Notes under the pieces: model-generated | What the model was told of the DNA's origin: nothing | The model's database searches: none | The model's input: the letters and a program-made list of their open reading frames with translations, nothing else | Position numbers and translations under genes: made by a program | Source of the DNA: Actinomycetota bacterium | GTDB taxonomy: Bacteria > Actinomycetota > Acidimicrobiia > Acidimicrobiales > Ilumatobacteraceae | NCBI GenBank assembly: GCA_009927665.1 | Contig: RFMM01000126.1 | Span: 1 to 35,261, forward strand | Length of the DNA: 35,261 nucleotides | Direction: 5' to 3' | Shown here: positions 3,915-20,844 of the stretch, piece by piece | Layout: every line of letters begins with the position of its first letter | Position numbering within the stretch: position 1 is the first letter of the stretch

Positions 3915-5783
3915 CTACTGAGGGGTCGCGAATCGGCGATGCACTTCGTCTGCCACGCTTGCCGGTAACCAGTCGAGCGCCGCCAGGCGTTCGCGGGTCA
4001 CACCGCGCAGGGCACCAATGCCACCTACTTCGTTCAGCAAACGTTCACGCCGTTTGGGGCCGAGCCCTGCGATGCCGTCTAGCTCACTCGCCTTCATTCG
4101 TTTGCCGCGTCGCTCGCGGTGGAAACTGTTGGCGAAGCGATGCGCTTCGTCACGAACCACCTGCAACATGAACAACGCATCGCTGCCCCGCGGCAAGAGC
4201 ACTGGTTCGGTTCGGTCGGGCAGGTACACCTCTTCAAATCGCTTCGCCAATGCCGCAACGTCAATCTCGTCTTCGAGCCCAAGTTCATGCAGCACGTCGA
4301 CGGCAACACCGAGCTGCCCCTTGCCTCCATCGACGAGTAGCAGTTGGGGCGGATACGCGAAGCGCCCCGGCTTCTCGCCACGCTCACTGGCGGGCGTGTC
4401 ACGTTCGTGAACGTACGCCGACAGCCGGCGGGTGAGCACTTCTCGCATCGCGGCATAGTCGTCGTTGCCTGAAACATTGCGCACGGTGAACTTGCGGTAT
4501 TCACGTTTGGCGGGAAGACCGTCTTCGACCACCACCATCGACCCGACATAGTCGGTGCCTTGCAGGTGTGCCATGTCATAGCACTCGATGCGCAGCGGGG
4601 CTTGCGACAACCCGAGTTGGTCTTGCAGTTCCGCGATTGCCCGGCTTCGCGCGTTGTGATCGCTAGCTCGCTTCAAGCGGTGTCGCACGAGCGCATCGCT
4701 GGCATTCTTCGTGACCATCTGTAGCAGTTCACGCCGATCACCACGTTGTGGTTGCCGAACGTCGACCTTGCTGCCGCGGCGCACCGCCAGCATCTCGGCA
4801 ACCACCGACGCTTCTTCGGGTTCGCTCGACACCATTACTTCCTTTGGCCAGCCAAGTGCCGGTTCTTCGGCGTACAAATCGACGAGCACTCGTTGCATCA
4901 GCTGCGCCGTCGTCAGTGGTTCAGATTTGTCAACGACATAGCCGTTGTTGCCGAGCACCCGACCCTTGCGCACGTAGAAAACGTGCACCGCTGCTTCAAG
5001 CTCTGATTCGGCAAGAGAAACAACGTCGAAGTCGTCACCGCGCTCGCCCACCATCTGCTGCCGCTCGAGCGCTCGATCGATGGCGCCAACTCGGTCGCGT
5101 AGTCGGGCTGCATCTTCGAACTGTTCGTTGGTCGAGGCCAAAGTCATTTGTTCGACGAGCGATGTTCGCACGTCATCGGTGTCGCCCGACAAAAATCGCT
5201 GCAATCCGTCGACGTGGCTCGCATAGGTGCTGGGTGCTACCTCGTTGACACACGGTCCGGAGCACTTTTCAATGTGAAACAACAAGCAGGGTCGACCAAG
5301 TCGTTCGTGCTGGCGAAACTTTGCGGGTGAACACGTGCGAACGGGGAAGGTACGCAGCAACGCATCGAGCGTGTCGCGAATCGCCCAGGCGTGCGCGAAG
5401 GGCCCGAAGTACTTCGTGCCCTTTCGCTTGCGGCCGCGCATTACGACCGCCCGGGGCCACGGCTCGTCGAGCGTGATCGCCAAGAACGGATAACTCTTGT
5501 CGTCGCGCAGACGCACGTTGAAGCGCGGGCGGTGCTGCTTGATGAGGTTGTACTCCAACATCAACGCATCGACTTCGCTCTTCACTTCGATCCAGCGCAC
5601 ATCGCTGGCTGCCGCCACCATTGCCACCGTGCGACTGTGCAAGAGCCCGGGGTCGGCAAAATATGACGTGACTCGAGCGCGCAGGTTGGCTGCTTTGCCA
5701 ACGTAGATGATGCGGCCGTGCACGTCGACGAATTGATACGAACCTGGCCCGGTCGGAATCACCGCGAGATTCGGGCGCTCCAT
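3915..5783 (-). CDS. uvrC: Excinuclease ABC subunit C
   Basis: Makes the two incisions around a DNA lesion in nucleotide excision repair, acting on the UvrB-DNA complex. The 622-residue protein has an N-terminal GIY-YIG-type nuclease domain (PGSYQF, then IIYVGKAANLRARV), a Cys-containing segment around residues 155-180 with CLLFHIEKCSGPC, a UVR domain (NEQFEDAARLRDRV) that binds UvrB, an RNase H-like nuclease domain (IECYDMAHLQG and LLLVDGGKGQL), and tandem helix-hairpin-helix motifs at the C-terminus (LDGIAGLGPKRRERLL). It follows uvrA by 3 nt, so the two are almost certainly translated together. Length is normal. Confidence 0.97.
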   Translation of the reverse strand: MERPNLAVIPTGPGSYQFVDVHGRIIYVGKAANLRARVTSYFADPGLLHSRTVAMVAAASDVRWIEVKSEVDALMLEYNLIKQHRPRFNVRLRDDKSYPFLAITLDEPWPRAVVMRGRKRKGTKYFGPFAHAWAIRDTLDALLRTFPVRTCSPAKFRQHERLGRPCLLFHIEKCSGPCVNEVAPSTYASHVDGLQRFLSGDTDDVRTSLVEQMTLASTNEQFEDAARLRDRVGAIDRALERQQMVGERGDDFDVVSLAESELEAAVHVFYVRKGRVLGNNGYVVDKSEPLTTAQLMQRVLVDLYAEEPALGWPKEVMVSSEPEEASVVAEMLAVRRGSKVDVRQPQRGDRRELLQMVTKNASDALVRHRLKRASDHNARSRAIAELQDQLGLSQAPLRIECYDMAHLQGTDYVGSMVVVEDGLPAKREYRKFTVRNVSGNDDYAAMREVLTRRLSAYVHERDTPASERGEKPGRFAYPPQLLLVDGGKGQLGVAVDVLHELGLEDEIDVAALAKRFEEVYLPDRTEPVLLPRGSDALFMLQVVRDEAHRFANSFHRERRGKRMKASELDGIAGLGPKRRERLLNEVGGIGALRGVTRERLAALDWLPASVADEVHRRFATPQ

Positions 5784-16354: not shown

Positions 16355-16441
16355 TGGTGCCCGAGGTGGGAGTCGAACCCACACGCCCTTACCAGGCAAC
16401 GGATTTTGAGTCCGTCGCGTCTGCCATTTCGCCACTCGGGC
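16355..16441 (-). tRNA. tRNA-Leu (anticodon CAA)
   Basis: The minus strand folds as a class II tRNA. The acceptor stem is GCCCGAG/CTCGGGC with discriminator A and an encoded CCA end. The anticodon stem ACGGA/TCCGT encloses the loop CTCAAAA, giving anticodon CAA for the codon UUG. A long variable arm follows. The T arm is GTGGG-TTCGACT-CCCAC. The length of 87 nt including CCA fits leucine tRNA. It reads divergently from fabD. Confidence 0.95.
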
Positions 16442-16493: not shown

Positions 16494-16513
16494 CGTTCGC
16501 AGGAGGTTGACGG

Positions 16514-17689
16514 TTGCTCGCGTTCTTGTTTCCTGGTCAAGGCTCGCAACGACCTGGCATGGGTCGCCCGTGGGTCGGTCACGACAGTTGGGAACTCGTC
16601 GACGAGGCATCGGCAATCACCGGTCGCGACGTTGGTGCACTGCTGCTTGATGCAGATGCAGACACGCTGAAAGACACCCGCAACGCCCAACTCACCACCT
16701 TCGTCAGCAGCCTGATGGTGCTCGATGCGGTCGAACGACTCGGCATCGAACCAAGTTTCTGCGCCGGGCACAGCTTGGGCGAATACACCGCTCTCACCGC
16801 CAACGGCGCACTCGGCTATGACGACGGTGTACGCCTCGTGCTCGAGCGTGGTGACGCAATGCACCAAGCAGGTCTCGAGTCGCCCGGTGCGATGTCGGCC
16901 GTGCTCGGCCTCGACGACGATCTGGTCGAAGTGGCATGTCGTCGCGCCGACGACCAGGTGTGGGTCGCCAACTTCAACGCGCCAGGGCAAGTGGTGATTG
17001 CAGGCTCGCCGAGTGGCATCGAGAAGGCCAGCGGTCACGCCAAAGAACTCGGCGCCAAACGTGTCATGACGTTGCCGGTCTCAGGCGCATTCCACACGCC
17101 CTTCATGACCGCCGCACGCGATCGGCTTCGGTCTGCGATCGCAGCGGCCAAGCCGCGTGACGCCGACGTGCCGATCGTTTCGAATGTCGACGCCCTCAGC
17201 CATCAACGCGGCGACGAGTGGGCGTCGCTGCTCTCGGCGCAACTTTGCAGCCCAGTGCGCTGGAAGCACTGTCTGCTTGAGTTGTCGCGACTCGGCGTGG
17301 CGGGCTATGTCGAGCTCGGACCAGGTGGCGTGCTCACGGGAATGGTGAAGCGCACGATCGAAGGTTCGCGTTCACTGAGCGTCTCGACACCCGATGAACT
17401 TGATGACCTGCTTACCTTCGTGTCGTCGGTCAGCCCTGAAAAAGCGCCGGTGCATGAGGGCGAGCACCTCTTTGTCGCCGAACGACTCGTCGTAAGCCCG
17501 GCTGCTGGCATCTTCACGCCCCATGCGGCGGCCCACGATGGCATGCGCATCGCAGTAGGTACGGTCATCGGCACGGTTGGTGACGTTGAGGTGCGATCGC
17601 CGTTCGATGGCATCTTGCAGAACTTCATCGCCGCCAGCGGCGAACGCTTGGCGATGCGCGAACCAGTCGCGTGGTTGCGCACCCACTAA
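16514..17689 (+). CDS. fabD: Malonyl-CoA:ACP transacylase with a C-terminal biotinyl/lipoyl-like domain
   Basis: Loads malonyl groups onto acyl carrier protein for type II fatty-acid synthesis. Residues 1-303 are a complete FabD: GQGSQ at 8-12, active-site Ser87 in GHSLG, Arg112, His194 in SGAFHTPFM, and the C-terminal LGPGGVLTGMVKR. The protein is 391 residues instead of about 310. Residues about 318-391 resemble the barrel-sandwich fold of biotinyl/lipoyl carriers (VVSPAAGIF, then RSPFDGILQNFI, then GERLAMREPVAWL). That region contains no lysine and the modified-Lys hairpin is replaced by GTVGDVEV, so it cannot be biotinylated. The start is TTG at 16514 with AGGAGG 7 nt upstream. It is the first gene of the operon. 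Confidence 0.93.
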   Translation: MLAFLFPGQGSQRPGMGRPWVGHDSWELVDEASAITGRDVGALLLDADADTLKDTRNAQLTTFVSSLMVLDAVERLGIEPSFCAGHSLGEYTALTANGALGYDDGVRLVLERGDAMHQAGLESPGAMSAVLGLDDDLVEVACRRADDQVWVANFNAPGQVVIAGSPSGIEKASGHAKELGAKRVMTLPVSGAFHTPFMTAARDRLRSAIAAAKPRDADVPIVSNVDALSHQRGDEWASLLSAQLCSPVRWKHCLLELSRLGVAGYVELGPGGVLTGMVKRTIEGSRSLSVSTPDELDDLLTFVSSVSPEKAPVHEGEHLFVAERLVVSPAAGIFTPHAAAHDGMRIAVGTVIGTVGDVEVRSPFDGILQNFIAASGERLAMREPVAWLRTH

Positions 17690-17714
17690 CCATGTTGCGC
17701 ACCCACTGACCATG
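17675..17714. repeat. 20-bp tandem duplication at the fabD/fabH junction
   Basis: Two adjacent 20-bp units, 17675-17694 and 17695-17714, differ at one base. The first contains the fabD stop (TAA); the second turns it into TGA and ends with the fabH ATG. The copy also creates a five-codon frame MLRTH-stop (17692-17709) that echoes the last four residues of FabD. Confidence 0.8.
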
Positions 17715-18644
17715 ACGTTCGGCGGCGTGATTCGAGGTTGGGGCACTGCCCTGCCCGAAAAGGTGCTCACCAATGACGACCTGTCGGCGATGATGGACAC
17801 CAACGACGAATGGATCACCGAGCGAACCGGCATCAAGCGTCGGCATGTGGGTGGCACGACGTCATCGCTGTCGATTGAGTCAGCACGCAAGGCGCTGGCG
17901 ATGTCTGGCCTGCCGCTTGAATCCATCGACGGTCTCGTGCTCTCGACCACCACGCCCGACCGCACGGTGCCTGCCACCTCGGCATCGGTGCAAGACGCGC
18001 TCGGTTTGCGCTGCGGCGCGTTCGACCTGAATGCCGCATGTTCCGGTTTCGTTTACGCCTACGTCGTAGCGCACGGCCTGCTTGCCATCGGAGCCAAGCG
18101 ACTGCTGGTCATCGGCACCGATACGTTGTCGCGCATCACCGACTGGAGCGATCGTGGCACCGCAATCTTGTTCGCTGATGGTTCAGGTGCGTGCGTTGTC
18201 GAAGCTGTTGACAACGGCGGACAACTGCTTGGTTGGGACATCGACGCCGACGGTTCCCTCGAACGCCTGTTGTACGCCGACGTCGGCGGCTACATCCACA
18301 TGGATGGCAAAGAGGTGTTCCGCCGCGCAGTTCGCATCATGGTTGACTCGGCCCAGAAGTCACTCGCGAAGGCCGGTGTATCAACCGACGACGTTGCGCT
18401 GTGTGTGCCACATCAAGCCAACGCGCGCATCATTGATGCGGCCTGCCGTCAGCTTGGTATTCCACTTGAACGCACCGCGGTGGTCTTGCATGAGACCGGC
18501 AACACGTCGTCAGCCTCGATACCGCTCGCGCTATTCGACGCCGCAGATCGTGGTCGCTTACACAACGGCGACCTCGTGTTGATGGTCGGTTTCGGTGCTG
18601 GCATGACTGCCGCCAGCGCGGTGATTGAGTGGAAGCAGCCATGA
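17712..18644 (+). CDS. fabH: Beta-ketoacyl-ACP synthase III
   Basis: Starts type II fatty-acid synthesis by condensing an acyl-CoA with malonyl-ACP. The 310-residue protein has the Cys-His-Asn triad: Cys110 in NAACSGF, His234 in VPHQANARI and Asn264 in HETGNTSSAS. The C-terminal GFGAGMTA is also typical. Length is slightly below the usual 315-330. The ATG at 17712 gives the standard start GGVIRGWGTALPEKVLTNDDL and lies 22 nt after the fabD stop, within a tandem duplication. The stop overlaps the fabG start by 4 nt (ATGA). Confidence 0.96.
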   Translation: MTFGGVIRGWGTALPEKVLTNDDLSAMMDTNDEWITERTGIKRRHVGGTTSSLSIESARKALAMSGLPLESIDGLVLSTTTPDRTVPATSASVQDALGLRCGAFDLNAACSGFVYAYVVAHGLLAIGAKRLLVIGTDTLSRITDWSDRGTAILFADGSGACVVEAVDNGGQLLGWDIDADGSLERLLYADVGGYIHMDGKEVFRRAVRIMVDSAQKSLAKAGVSTDDVALCVPHQANARIIDAACRQLGIPLERTAVVLHETGNTSSASIPLALFDAADRGRLHNGDLVLMVGFGAGMTAASAVIEWKQP

Positions 18645-19345
18645 GTCGCGTCGTGCTCGTCACTGGTGCCAGTCGCGGTATCGGTTTGGCGATAGCCGAT
18701 CGATTCGCGGCACTTGGCGACAAGGTCGCTATCACCTACAACTCGACTCCACCGTCAGGCAATCATCTCGCCGTCAAGTGCGATGTCACGAATGCCGACG
18801 AGGTCGAAGCAGCGTTCAGCAAGATCGAAGGCGAATTCGGGGCGGTCGAAGTGCTGGTGTCAAACGCCGGCATCACAAAAGACGGCCTGCTCTTGCGCAT
18901 GAAAGAAGCCGACTTCACCAGCGTGGTCGACACCAACCTGACTGGTGCATTTCGAGTGGCCAAGCGGGCAACGGCAGGCATGGTTCGTGCCCGAGCGGGG
19001 CGCATCGTGTTTGTTTCGAGCGTCGTGGGTCTGCTCGGTCAAGCCGGCCAGGCGAACTACGCCGCGTCGAAAGCCGGCCTCGTCGGCTTTGCACGGTCGC
19101 TTGCCCGCGAACTCGGCAGTCGCAGCATCACCGTGAACGTCGTCGCACCGGGCCCGGTTGACACCGACATGACCCGCGCACTTGGCGATGAGAAGCTTGC
19201 AGCGTTTGCCAACCTGGTTCCGCTTGGCCGCATCGCTACCGCCGACGAGATCGCCGGCGTCGTCACCTTCCTCGCCTCAGCTGACGCCGCCTACATCACC
19301 GGTGCGGTGATTCCCGTCGATGGCGGTCTCGGCATGGGGCACTGA
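18641..19345 (+). CDS. fabG: 3-oxoacyl-ACP reductase
   Basis: NADPH-dependent reduction of 3-oxoacyl-ACP in fatty-acid elongation; a short-chain dehydrogenase/reductase. The 234-residue protein has the cofactor motif TGASRGIG at residues 8-15, NAG near residue 75, and catalytic Ser127, Tyr140 and Lys144 (YAASK). The C-terminal GAVIPVDGGLGMGH is typical and resembles the mycobacterial MabA form. ATGA overlap with fabH indicates coupled translation. The stop codon lies at the start of a 20-bp tandem duplication. Confidence 0.95.
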   Translation: MSRVVLVTGASRGIGLAIADRFAALGDKVAITYNSTPPSGNHLAVKCDVTNADEVEAAFSKIEGEFGAVEVLVSNAGITKDGLLLRMKEADFTSVVDTNLTGAFRVAKRATAGMVRARAGRIVFVSSVVGLLGQAGQANYAASKAGLVGFARSLARELGSRSITVNVVAPGPVDTDMTRALGDEKLAAFANLVPLGRIATADEIAGVVTFLASADAAYITGAVIPVDGGLGMGH

Positions 19346-19407: not shown

Positions 19408-19647
19408 GTGAGCCAAGAACTGTTCGATCGTTTCAGCAAGTGTGCTGTCAGCATTCTCTCGGTGGATGCAGCAAAGGTCACGCGAGAAGCCCGTTTCAAA
19501 GAAGATCTCGAAGCCGACAGCCTCGACCTCGTCGAATTCGTGATGGAACTGGAGACGGAGTTCGGCGTCGAGGTGCCCGAGCAAGACCTCGAAGGCATCA
19601 CCACCGTCGGTCAGGCTTTCGACCTCATCGTCGCCAAGACCAAGTAG
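19408..19647 (+). CDS. acpP: Acyl carrier protein
   Basis: Carries growing acyl chains as phosphopantetheine thioesters. The acidic 79-residue protein has the attachment motif ADSLDLVEFVM with Ser38 and the helix-3 segment FGVEVPEQDL. The start is GTG with AAGGAGG five bases upstream, the strongest ribosome-binding site in this cluster and consistent with the high expression expected of ACP. It lies between fabG and fabF, as in many type II fatty-acid operons. It does contain one Cys (residue 12), which is unusual but not diagnostic. Confidence 0.96.
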   Translation: MSQELFDRFSKCAVSILSVDAAKVTREARFKEDLEADSLDLVEFVMELETEFGVEVPEQDLEGITTVGQAFDLIVAKTK

Positions 19648-19656
19648 CGCTCCCCG

Positions 19657-20844
19657 ATGCAGGGGGCGGGTTATCGAGTAGCCATCACGGGCTACGGCGT
19701 CGTCGCGCCGTGCGGCGTTGGCAAGCAGGCCTTCTGGCAAGGATTGCTGGGGCCTGGCATTCGCGGCGCCAAGACCGTCGAGTTGGCGAACTGGGACCCG
19801 CAACCGTATTTCGCGAACCCAAAAGAAGCGCGGCGTGCTGACCGCGTCGAACAATTTGCGCTCGCTGCGGCGCACGAAGCCCTCACCCAGTCGGGCGAAC
19901 TTCCCTATGACCACGCCCGCATCGGCACGATTTTCGGCACCGGCATCGGCGGTTTGCGCACCCTCGAAGATTCGGTAGTAACGCGGGTCGAAAAGGGCGA
20001 GCGCCGCGTCTCGCCGTTTCTCGTGCCGATGATGATGGCGAACGCCTGTGGTGCCGCCATCTCGATGCGCTACGGCTTGCGCGGGCCGGCCGAAACGATC
20101 TGCACCGCCTGTGCCGCCGCGACTCACGCCATTGGCGCTGCCGCTCGACAGATTGCGTGGGGTCGCTGCGACGCCGTTATCACGGGTGGATCCGAATCAG
20201 CAGCGACCATCACCGCGGTAGCGGGGTTCGCCAACATGACGGCGTTGTCGTCATCAGGCGAGAGCAAGCCGTTCGATGCAACGCGAGATGGTTTTGTGTT
20301 TGGCGAAGGCGCAGCCGTCTTCGTGCTTGAGCGCTACGACCTGGCGCAGGCGCGAGGTGCGACGATTCTTGGCGAAATTCTTGGCGCGGCAAGCAATGCC
20401 GATGCACACCACATCACCGCCCCGTCACCGGGCGGCGTTGGCGCGATCGCCTGCATGCAACTGGCACTTGATGATGCCGGGCTCTCTGCGAGCGACATCA
20501 AGCAAGTGAACGCTCACGGCACCTCGACCCCACTCAACGACCAAGCCGAGGCACAAGCGGTTGCTGCCGTGTTCGGCAAGCCGACTCCGCCCGTCACGTC
20601 AATCAAGGGCGTTACTGGTCACCCGCTCGGCGCCGCTGGTGCTCTTGAAGCGGCGGCCGTGCTGCTGTCGTTTGAGCACGGCGTGATTCCGCCCACGGCA
20701 AACACCACCATGTTGGGAGACGACATCGAATGCGATGTCGTTTTCGGTGCGCCACGCCCGTGGACACCGGGGCCCACGATCAGCAACAACTTTGGCTTCG
20801 GCGGACACAACGGTTCGGTGATCATCGCGCCACCGCGCGCGTAG
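19657..20844 (+). CDS. fabF: Beta-ketoacyl-ACP synthase II
   Basis: Elongating condensing enzyme of type II fatty-acid synthesis. The 395-residue protein has the Cys-His-His triad: Cys152 in TACAAATHA, His287 in NAHGTSTPLND and His322 in KGVTGHPLGAAGA, with the Lys at 317, and the C-terminal NNFGFGGHNGS. It begins 9 nt after the acpP stop with no clear ribosome-binding site, so it probably depends on coupling to acpP. It is the last gene of the operon and converges on fabZ with only 6 bp between. Confidence 0.95.
   Translation: MQGAGYRVAITGYGVVAPCGVGKQAFWQGLLGPGIRGAKTVELANWDPQPYFANPKEARRADRVEQFALAAAHEALTQSGELPYDHARIGTIFGTGIGGLRTLEDSVVTRVEKGERRVSPFLVPMMMANACGAAISMRYGLRGPAETICTACAAATHAIGAAARQIAWGRCDAVITGGSESAATITAVAGFANMTALSSSGESKPFDATRDGFVFGEGAAVFVLERYDLAQARGATILGEILGAASNADAHHITAPSPGGVGAIACMQLALDDAGLSASDIKQVNAHGTSTPLNDQAEAQAVAAVFGKPTPPVTSIKGVTGHPLGAAGALEAAAVLLSFEHGVIPPTANTTMLGDDIECDVVFGAPRPWTPGPTISNNFGFGGHNGSVIIAPPRA

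Follow-up and report, generated by a model that had tools for sequence, protein, structure and literature searches.

A lysine-free biotinyl-like domain fused to FabD and encoded beside fatty acid synthesis genes in Actinomycetota

Introduction

The biotinyl domain of the biotin carboxyl carrier protein (BCCP) of acetyl-CoA carboxylase (PF00364; PDB entries 1bdo, 4hr7 and 2d5d) is a barrel-sandwich domain with its biotinyl lysine, within an MKM motif, at the tip of a hairpin. The barrel-sandwich fold has been reused for unrelated jobs, and lysine-free domains of this general fold occur in RND/HlyD adaptors, YqeB, BesA and RnfC_N. BCCP homologues without the biotinylation motif, named BADC, are known from plants, where they are held to help assemble the plastid acetyl-CoA carboxylase or, in another model, to inhibit it (PMC11926652). 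Whether the route of malonyl-CoA from acetyl-CoA carboxylase to the bacterial type II fatty acid synthase (FAS-II) involves physical coupling is an open question.

The subject of this study is a FabD (malonyl-CoA:ACP transacylase, MCAT; EC 2.3.1.39) with a C-terminal tail, encoded by a freshwater actinobacterium of the family Ilumatobacteraceae (Acidimicrobiales). Its gene lies in contig RFMM01000126.1 of assembly GCA_009927665.1, of which the whole analysed stretch of 35,261 nt is referred to as the window. The tail belongs to a compact and apparently undescribed actinobacterial family, whose fused form current Pfam and NCBIfam models fail to detect. A search of the open-access literature, weak evidence by its nature, returned neither a FabD of this kind nor a lysine-less BCCP in bacteria or bacterial fab operons, and the initial sequence-only reading had likewise known of no such FabD. 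The module would make the question of physical coupling directly testable.

Results and Discussion

The enzyme part and the gene cluster

The enzyme part of the protein is an ordinary FabD with a tail appended. The NCBIfam model for FabD, TIGR00128, matches residues 1–282 with 276.7 bits, above its curated cut-off of 260.9, and the catalytic set, consisting of Ser87 within GHSLG, Arg112, His194 and Gln243, is invariant across a 42-row alignment. In the AlphaFold2 model of the whole chain (mean pLDDT 90.5), residues 1–308 show the MCAT fold and match solved FabD structures with Z scores of about 42, the match to Salmonella FabD having a Z of 42 over 301 residues. Whereas an ordinary FabD stops near residue 305, the window protein adds a linker and an 80-residue domain. 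Residues 312–321 are the only segment with a pLDDT below 50 and are disordered in the full-length model; the tail domain is therefore presumably tethered by a flexible linker.

The TTG start codon is supported by the Shine-Dalgarno-like sequence upstream of it. The genes of the cluster are collected in Table 1; a FabZ-like gene lies on the opposite strand.

Table 1. Features of the fabD fusion gene and the genes downstream of it (window coordinates).
Feature	Position	Strand	Remarks
Shine-Dalgarno-like AGGAGG	16501..16506	+	7 nt 5′ of the fabD TTG start; from sequence
FabD-tail open reading frame	16514–17689	+	391 aa; translation matches that of the sequence-only reading
FabD (malonyl-CoA:ACP transacylase) catalytic part, residues 1–308	16514..17437	+	TIGR00128, structure match, catalytic residues
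Linker, residues 306–321	17429..17476	+	low model confidence; substitution pattern about neutral
Predicted lysine-free biotinyl-like barrel-sandwich domain, residues 314–391 (78 residues)	17453..17686	+	conservation, profile, model
Shortened hairpin GTVGDVEV, residues 353–360, turn Gly356-Asp357	17570..17593	+	replaces the biotinyl-lysine hairpin
fabH, next gene	17712..18644	+	ATG start at 17712
fabG	18629..19345	+	downstream of fabH
acpP (acyl carrier protein)	19408..19647	+	downstream of fabG
fabF	19657..20844	+	downstream of acpP

Fold of the tail domain

The tail is predicted to be a barrel-sandwich hybrid nearest to biotinyl domains. An AlphaFold2 model of the domain alone has six strands and a core pLDDT of about 97. 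A Foldseek search of the PDB with this model gave BCCPs as the best matches (E 4e-5), and VIA aligned it with E. coli BCCP, taken from the BC–BCCP complex (4hr7_G), with a Z of 12.1 and 1.0 Å over 67 residues. The profile comparison pointed in the same direction. When a profile of 37 homologues was compared with all PDB chains, it matched Pyrococcus BCCP (2d5d) with an E of 3e-5 and E. coli BCCP (1bdo) with an E of about 1e-3, and the alignment covered almost all of the domain, a gap falling at the AMKM/MKM of BCCP. The family profile also matched the BCCP of the same cell (hhalign E 8e-5). A Pfam search with the tail alone gave no match at E up to 10, and the window protein scores below the PF00364 cut-off; at E up to 1, PF00364 was matched by 20 of 27 family members, the best with an E of 3e-7.

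Compared with the biotinyl domain of BCCP, the tail has no biotinyl lysine and no MKM motif, its hairpin tip is deleted, and it lies outside any carboxylase polypeptide. Resemblance to the other lysine-free barrel-sandwich domains (RND/HlyD adaptors, YqeB, BesA and RnfC_N) is confined to the general fold and weak profile matches, whereas the gene context differs, the tail does not have a long insert between its two halves, and its best matches are BCCPs.

Loss of the carrier site

Residues 311–391 contain no lysine, the last one (Lys310) being located in the linker. The hairpin is shortened by 4–5 residues in the fused proteins of Acidimicrobiia relative to the separately encoded homologues, which have a Gly-rich turn of BCCP length in place of the tip motif. 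With the register set by hhalign against the cell's own BCCP, the column of the carrier lysine holds a lysine in 0 of 61 homologues; it is a gap in 13 and mostly Gly or Ser in the others, and the residues of the hairpin tip around it are variable, with none conserved. Elsewhere, the genome encodes a biotin carboxylase–BCCP protein with the motif EAMKMEN, two carboxyltransferases and two enzymes of the BPL_LplA_LipB family. Since the tail has neither the lysine nor the hairpin tip, and since a normal BC–BCCP is encoded elsewhere, the tail is evidently not the carrier of the cell. Judged by its sequence, it is unable to carry biotin, lipoate or another group.

These results bear out what the sequence-only reading had observed, namely that the chain runs on past FabD to residue 391, that the extension is a biotinyl/lipoyl barrel, and that it is lysine-free with a hairpin reading GTVGDVEV. 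AlphaFold2, Foldseek, VIA and the profile comparisons agree on the barrel, with neither a different fold nor disorder in the modelled core. The start of the domain, placed by that reading at about residue 318, agrees to within a few residues with the conserved part, which begins with HEGEHLF at residue 314.

Selection on the tail

The pN/pS of the tail domain against relatives of the window is about 0.15–0.25, close to that of FabD (about 0.13–0.2), and that of the linker (residues 301–313) is 0.6–1.0. Against close relatives, pN and pS are 0.12–0.17 and 0.69–0.80 for the tail domain and 0.08–0.11 and 0.54–0.70 for FabD, while the pN of the linker, about 0.55, is near its own pS. Nine columns are invariant in an alignment of the domain from 37 sequences of the order. 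These substitution patterns indicate that the tail is under purifying selection and is not a chance extension of the open reading frame.

Distribution and operon position

The fused form occurs in all full-length-matching relatives in the family of the window and in many families of the order. Relatives of the window that carry a name are Ilumatobacteraceae, Acidimicrobiaceae and Microthrix-like MAGs. A short separate gene encodes the domain in at least seven additional families of the order; it is located directly 3′ of fabD and 5′ of fabH wherever both neighbours lie in the sequence, and in the phylum sample several more groups have this gene in the same position, between the two fab genes. 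The separate proteins of sister Acidimicrobiia and many other Actinomycetota are 85–130 residues long. In the survey, which covered Actinomycetota, strong matches (E below 1e-18) were found in about 54 of 396 sampled genomes, the weaker ones grading into true biotinyl/lipoyl domains, which leaves the full count of the family uncertain. The sequence-only reading had seen one instance of the fusion; the fusion is real and is present throughout the family of the window and in a clade within the order, but the domain family is much wider and includes the many separate genes. A tblastn search with the tail against plasmids gave no match.

The domain adjoins or lies inside fabD and/or adjoins fabH at 58 of 60 loci (with fabH as neighbour at 57 and fabD at 52), where both the 60 loci and the 61 sequences above still count one locus, L091, that probably belongs to another subfamily and was otherwise left aside. 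At L091 (about 4873–5290), the domain-like short gene stands beside sulfotransferase and aminotransferase genes of the polysaccharide type, with no fab genes near. In two families, f61 and f68, the domain gene accompanies fabH, with fabD located elsewhere; the partner could therefore be FabH or the FAS-II set as a whole. Among domain-free genomes of the phylum, some have only a short gap between adjacent fabD and fabH genes (for example L198–L202 and L204), some have fabG next after fabD (L194–L196, L208 and L211–L213), and in the others no fabD was detected. In five genomes from the window's order or class (G037, G054, G057, G371 and G076; completeness at least 96% in four), neither a FabD match nor a strong match to the domain was seen, so that one may ask how fatty acids are made there.

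Repeated fusion to FabD

In a tree built from FabD, FabH, FabG and FabF, the fused proteins of Acidimicrobiia group in a single clade; another fused group (f43) is located elsewhere, and f81, on a long branch, is probably a third. A single clade of all fused rows was rejected by the AU test (p 8e-5, and p 3e-5 after removal of f81). By this tree, FabD acquired the domain by fusion at least twice; the count of two or three events is approximate, given the quick, simple model of the four-protein tree. Repeated fusion of one pair is commonly read as a sign of functional contact. The f81 case, a protein of 416 residues encoded at L187 4566–5813 in a complete 7.0-Mb genome, is apparently an independent fusion of FabD with the domain. 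At L178, one open frame spans both parts, but their reading frames differ, and this locus was counted as separate.

Linkage to carboxyltransferase genes

A carboxyltransferase gene follows 3′ of fabF in the eight separate-gene loci of Acidimicrobiia with enough sequence (L047, L050–L054, L174 and L175), and it also ends the operon in all five fab loci of f39, f61 and f68 (L093, L188, L189, L191 and L192). At a further locus of f68 (L190 4636–6456), the gene of the lysine-less domain directly precedes a carboxyltransferase gene, at a distance of 3 bases, and fab genes are absent from the surroundings. In the lineage of the window and several other groups, the carboxyltransferase gene lies outside the fab operon; the window genome has, on another contig, a relative of this carboxyltransferase that is 54% identical to the one of L050. 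The linkage may predate the domain, because M. tuberculosis has accD6 after fabD-acpM-kasA-kasB in an operon that is not known to encode the domain. As far as gene order can tell, the neighbourhoods favour FabD, FabH and carboxyltransferase as candidate partners, and the carboxyltransferase neighbourhood supports the carboxylase as a partner, short of proof.

Possible role of the domain

What could a BCCP-shaped domain that carries nothing do beside FabD? With no conserved tip residue and a true BCCP elsewhere in the genome, a docking or structural module, as proposed by the sequence-only reading with acetyl-CoA carboxylase or ACP as possible partners, is the best remaining reading. The domain may descend from a BCCP-type biotinyl domain and be a non-carrier accessory module of FAS-II, vertically inherited in Actinomycetota. 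Its ancestral state was probably a separate protein of ~90 residues encoded between fabD and fabH, and in the lineage of the window this domain would have become fused via the flexible linker to the C-terminus of FabD. The BCCP-like surface might then engage acetyl/acyl-CoA carboxylase, through its carboxyltransferase or BC–BCCP subunits, and such docking could hold malonyl-CoA production beside FabD/FabH, or could tune the carboxylase as plant BADC does. We tentatively favour this proposal of a docking or assembly piece that engages the carboxylase and couples it to FabD/FabH, or tunes it, at a probability somewhat short of even, because of the non-carrying BCCP shape, the selection on the domain, and its ties to the malonyl-CoA-consuming enzymes and, in some groups of the phylum, also to the enzyme producing malonyl-CoA. 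More generally, the tail probably serves bacterial fatty acid synthesis as an assembly or control part that has been overlooked, since the same domain is a separate gene beside fatty acid genes across much of the phylum.

The fold of the domain is that of carriers, but attachment of biotin, lipoate or another group to a residue other than lysine is barely conceivable, and we rejected a carrier role altogether, given the missing lysine in all 61 homologues, the free variation of the tip residues and their deletion in the fused proteins of Acidimicrobiia, and the normal carrier in the genome. The loss of the lysine and the hairpin tip might also suggest a decayed, functionless remnant of AccB. 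This is very improbable and was likewise rejected, because the domain is under strong purifying selection and is kept across many families with a fixed place in the operon and repeated fusion.

A different arrangement, in which the domain contacts FabH, FabD or ACP and organises the hand-off of malonyl-ACP as an internal FAS-II scaffold without touching acetyl-CoA carboxylase, is rather unlikely but deserves serious consideration. It fits the prevalence of fabH and fabD as neighbours, the recurrent fusion to FabD, and the location of the carboxyltransferase gene outside the operon in many groups; however, the nearest relatives in both fold and sequence are the biotinyl domains of carboxylases, and at L190 the domain gene is paired with a carboxyltransferase gene alone. 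Less probable by a good measure is that the domain is a decoy that competes with holo-BCCP and throttles malonyl-CoA synthesis, with the abundance of FabD setting the brake. The close fold match to BCCP and the BADC model of BCCP replacement and inhibition (PMC11926652) would suit such a decoy, but the hairpin tip that enters the active sites is deleted, so that competition could occur only via other surfaces.

Like BADC, the tail resembles BCCP, lacks the biotinylation motif and is tied to fatty acid synthesis. Different from BADC, it is bacterial, short, and encoded with or fused to FabD/FabH, and the two are likened by fold and motif loss. By this analogy, the tail perhaps works like BADC, and its family would offer a bacterial parallel to a plant protein whose role, glue or brake, is debated. 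An extension of the docking proposal, possible though held with less confidence than the proposal itself, is that a whole family of lysine-less BCCP mimics, a regular part of FAS-II in much of Actinomycetota, physically couples the carboxylase to FabD/FabH and channels or meters malonyl units, as a bacterial counterpart of BADC that became welded to FabD in Acidimicrobiia.

Other features of the locus

A tRNA-Leu gene upstream of fabD (16355–16441) is conserved in the relatives, unlike a minus-strand tRNA-Tyr that ARAGORN called inside fabD (16729–16818), which is absent from five relatives and was discarded as a probable false call. The junction of fabD and fabH (17674–17713) carries a 20-bp tandem duplication (GTTGCGCACCCACT[A/G]ACCAT), by which the codons of the last residues of the tail (LRTH and stop) are repeated just 5′ of the fabH start. 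In one relative (L041 3669–6724), the fused fabD is flanked by two fabH-like genes.
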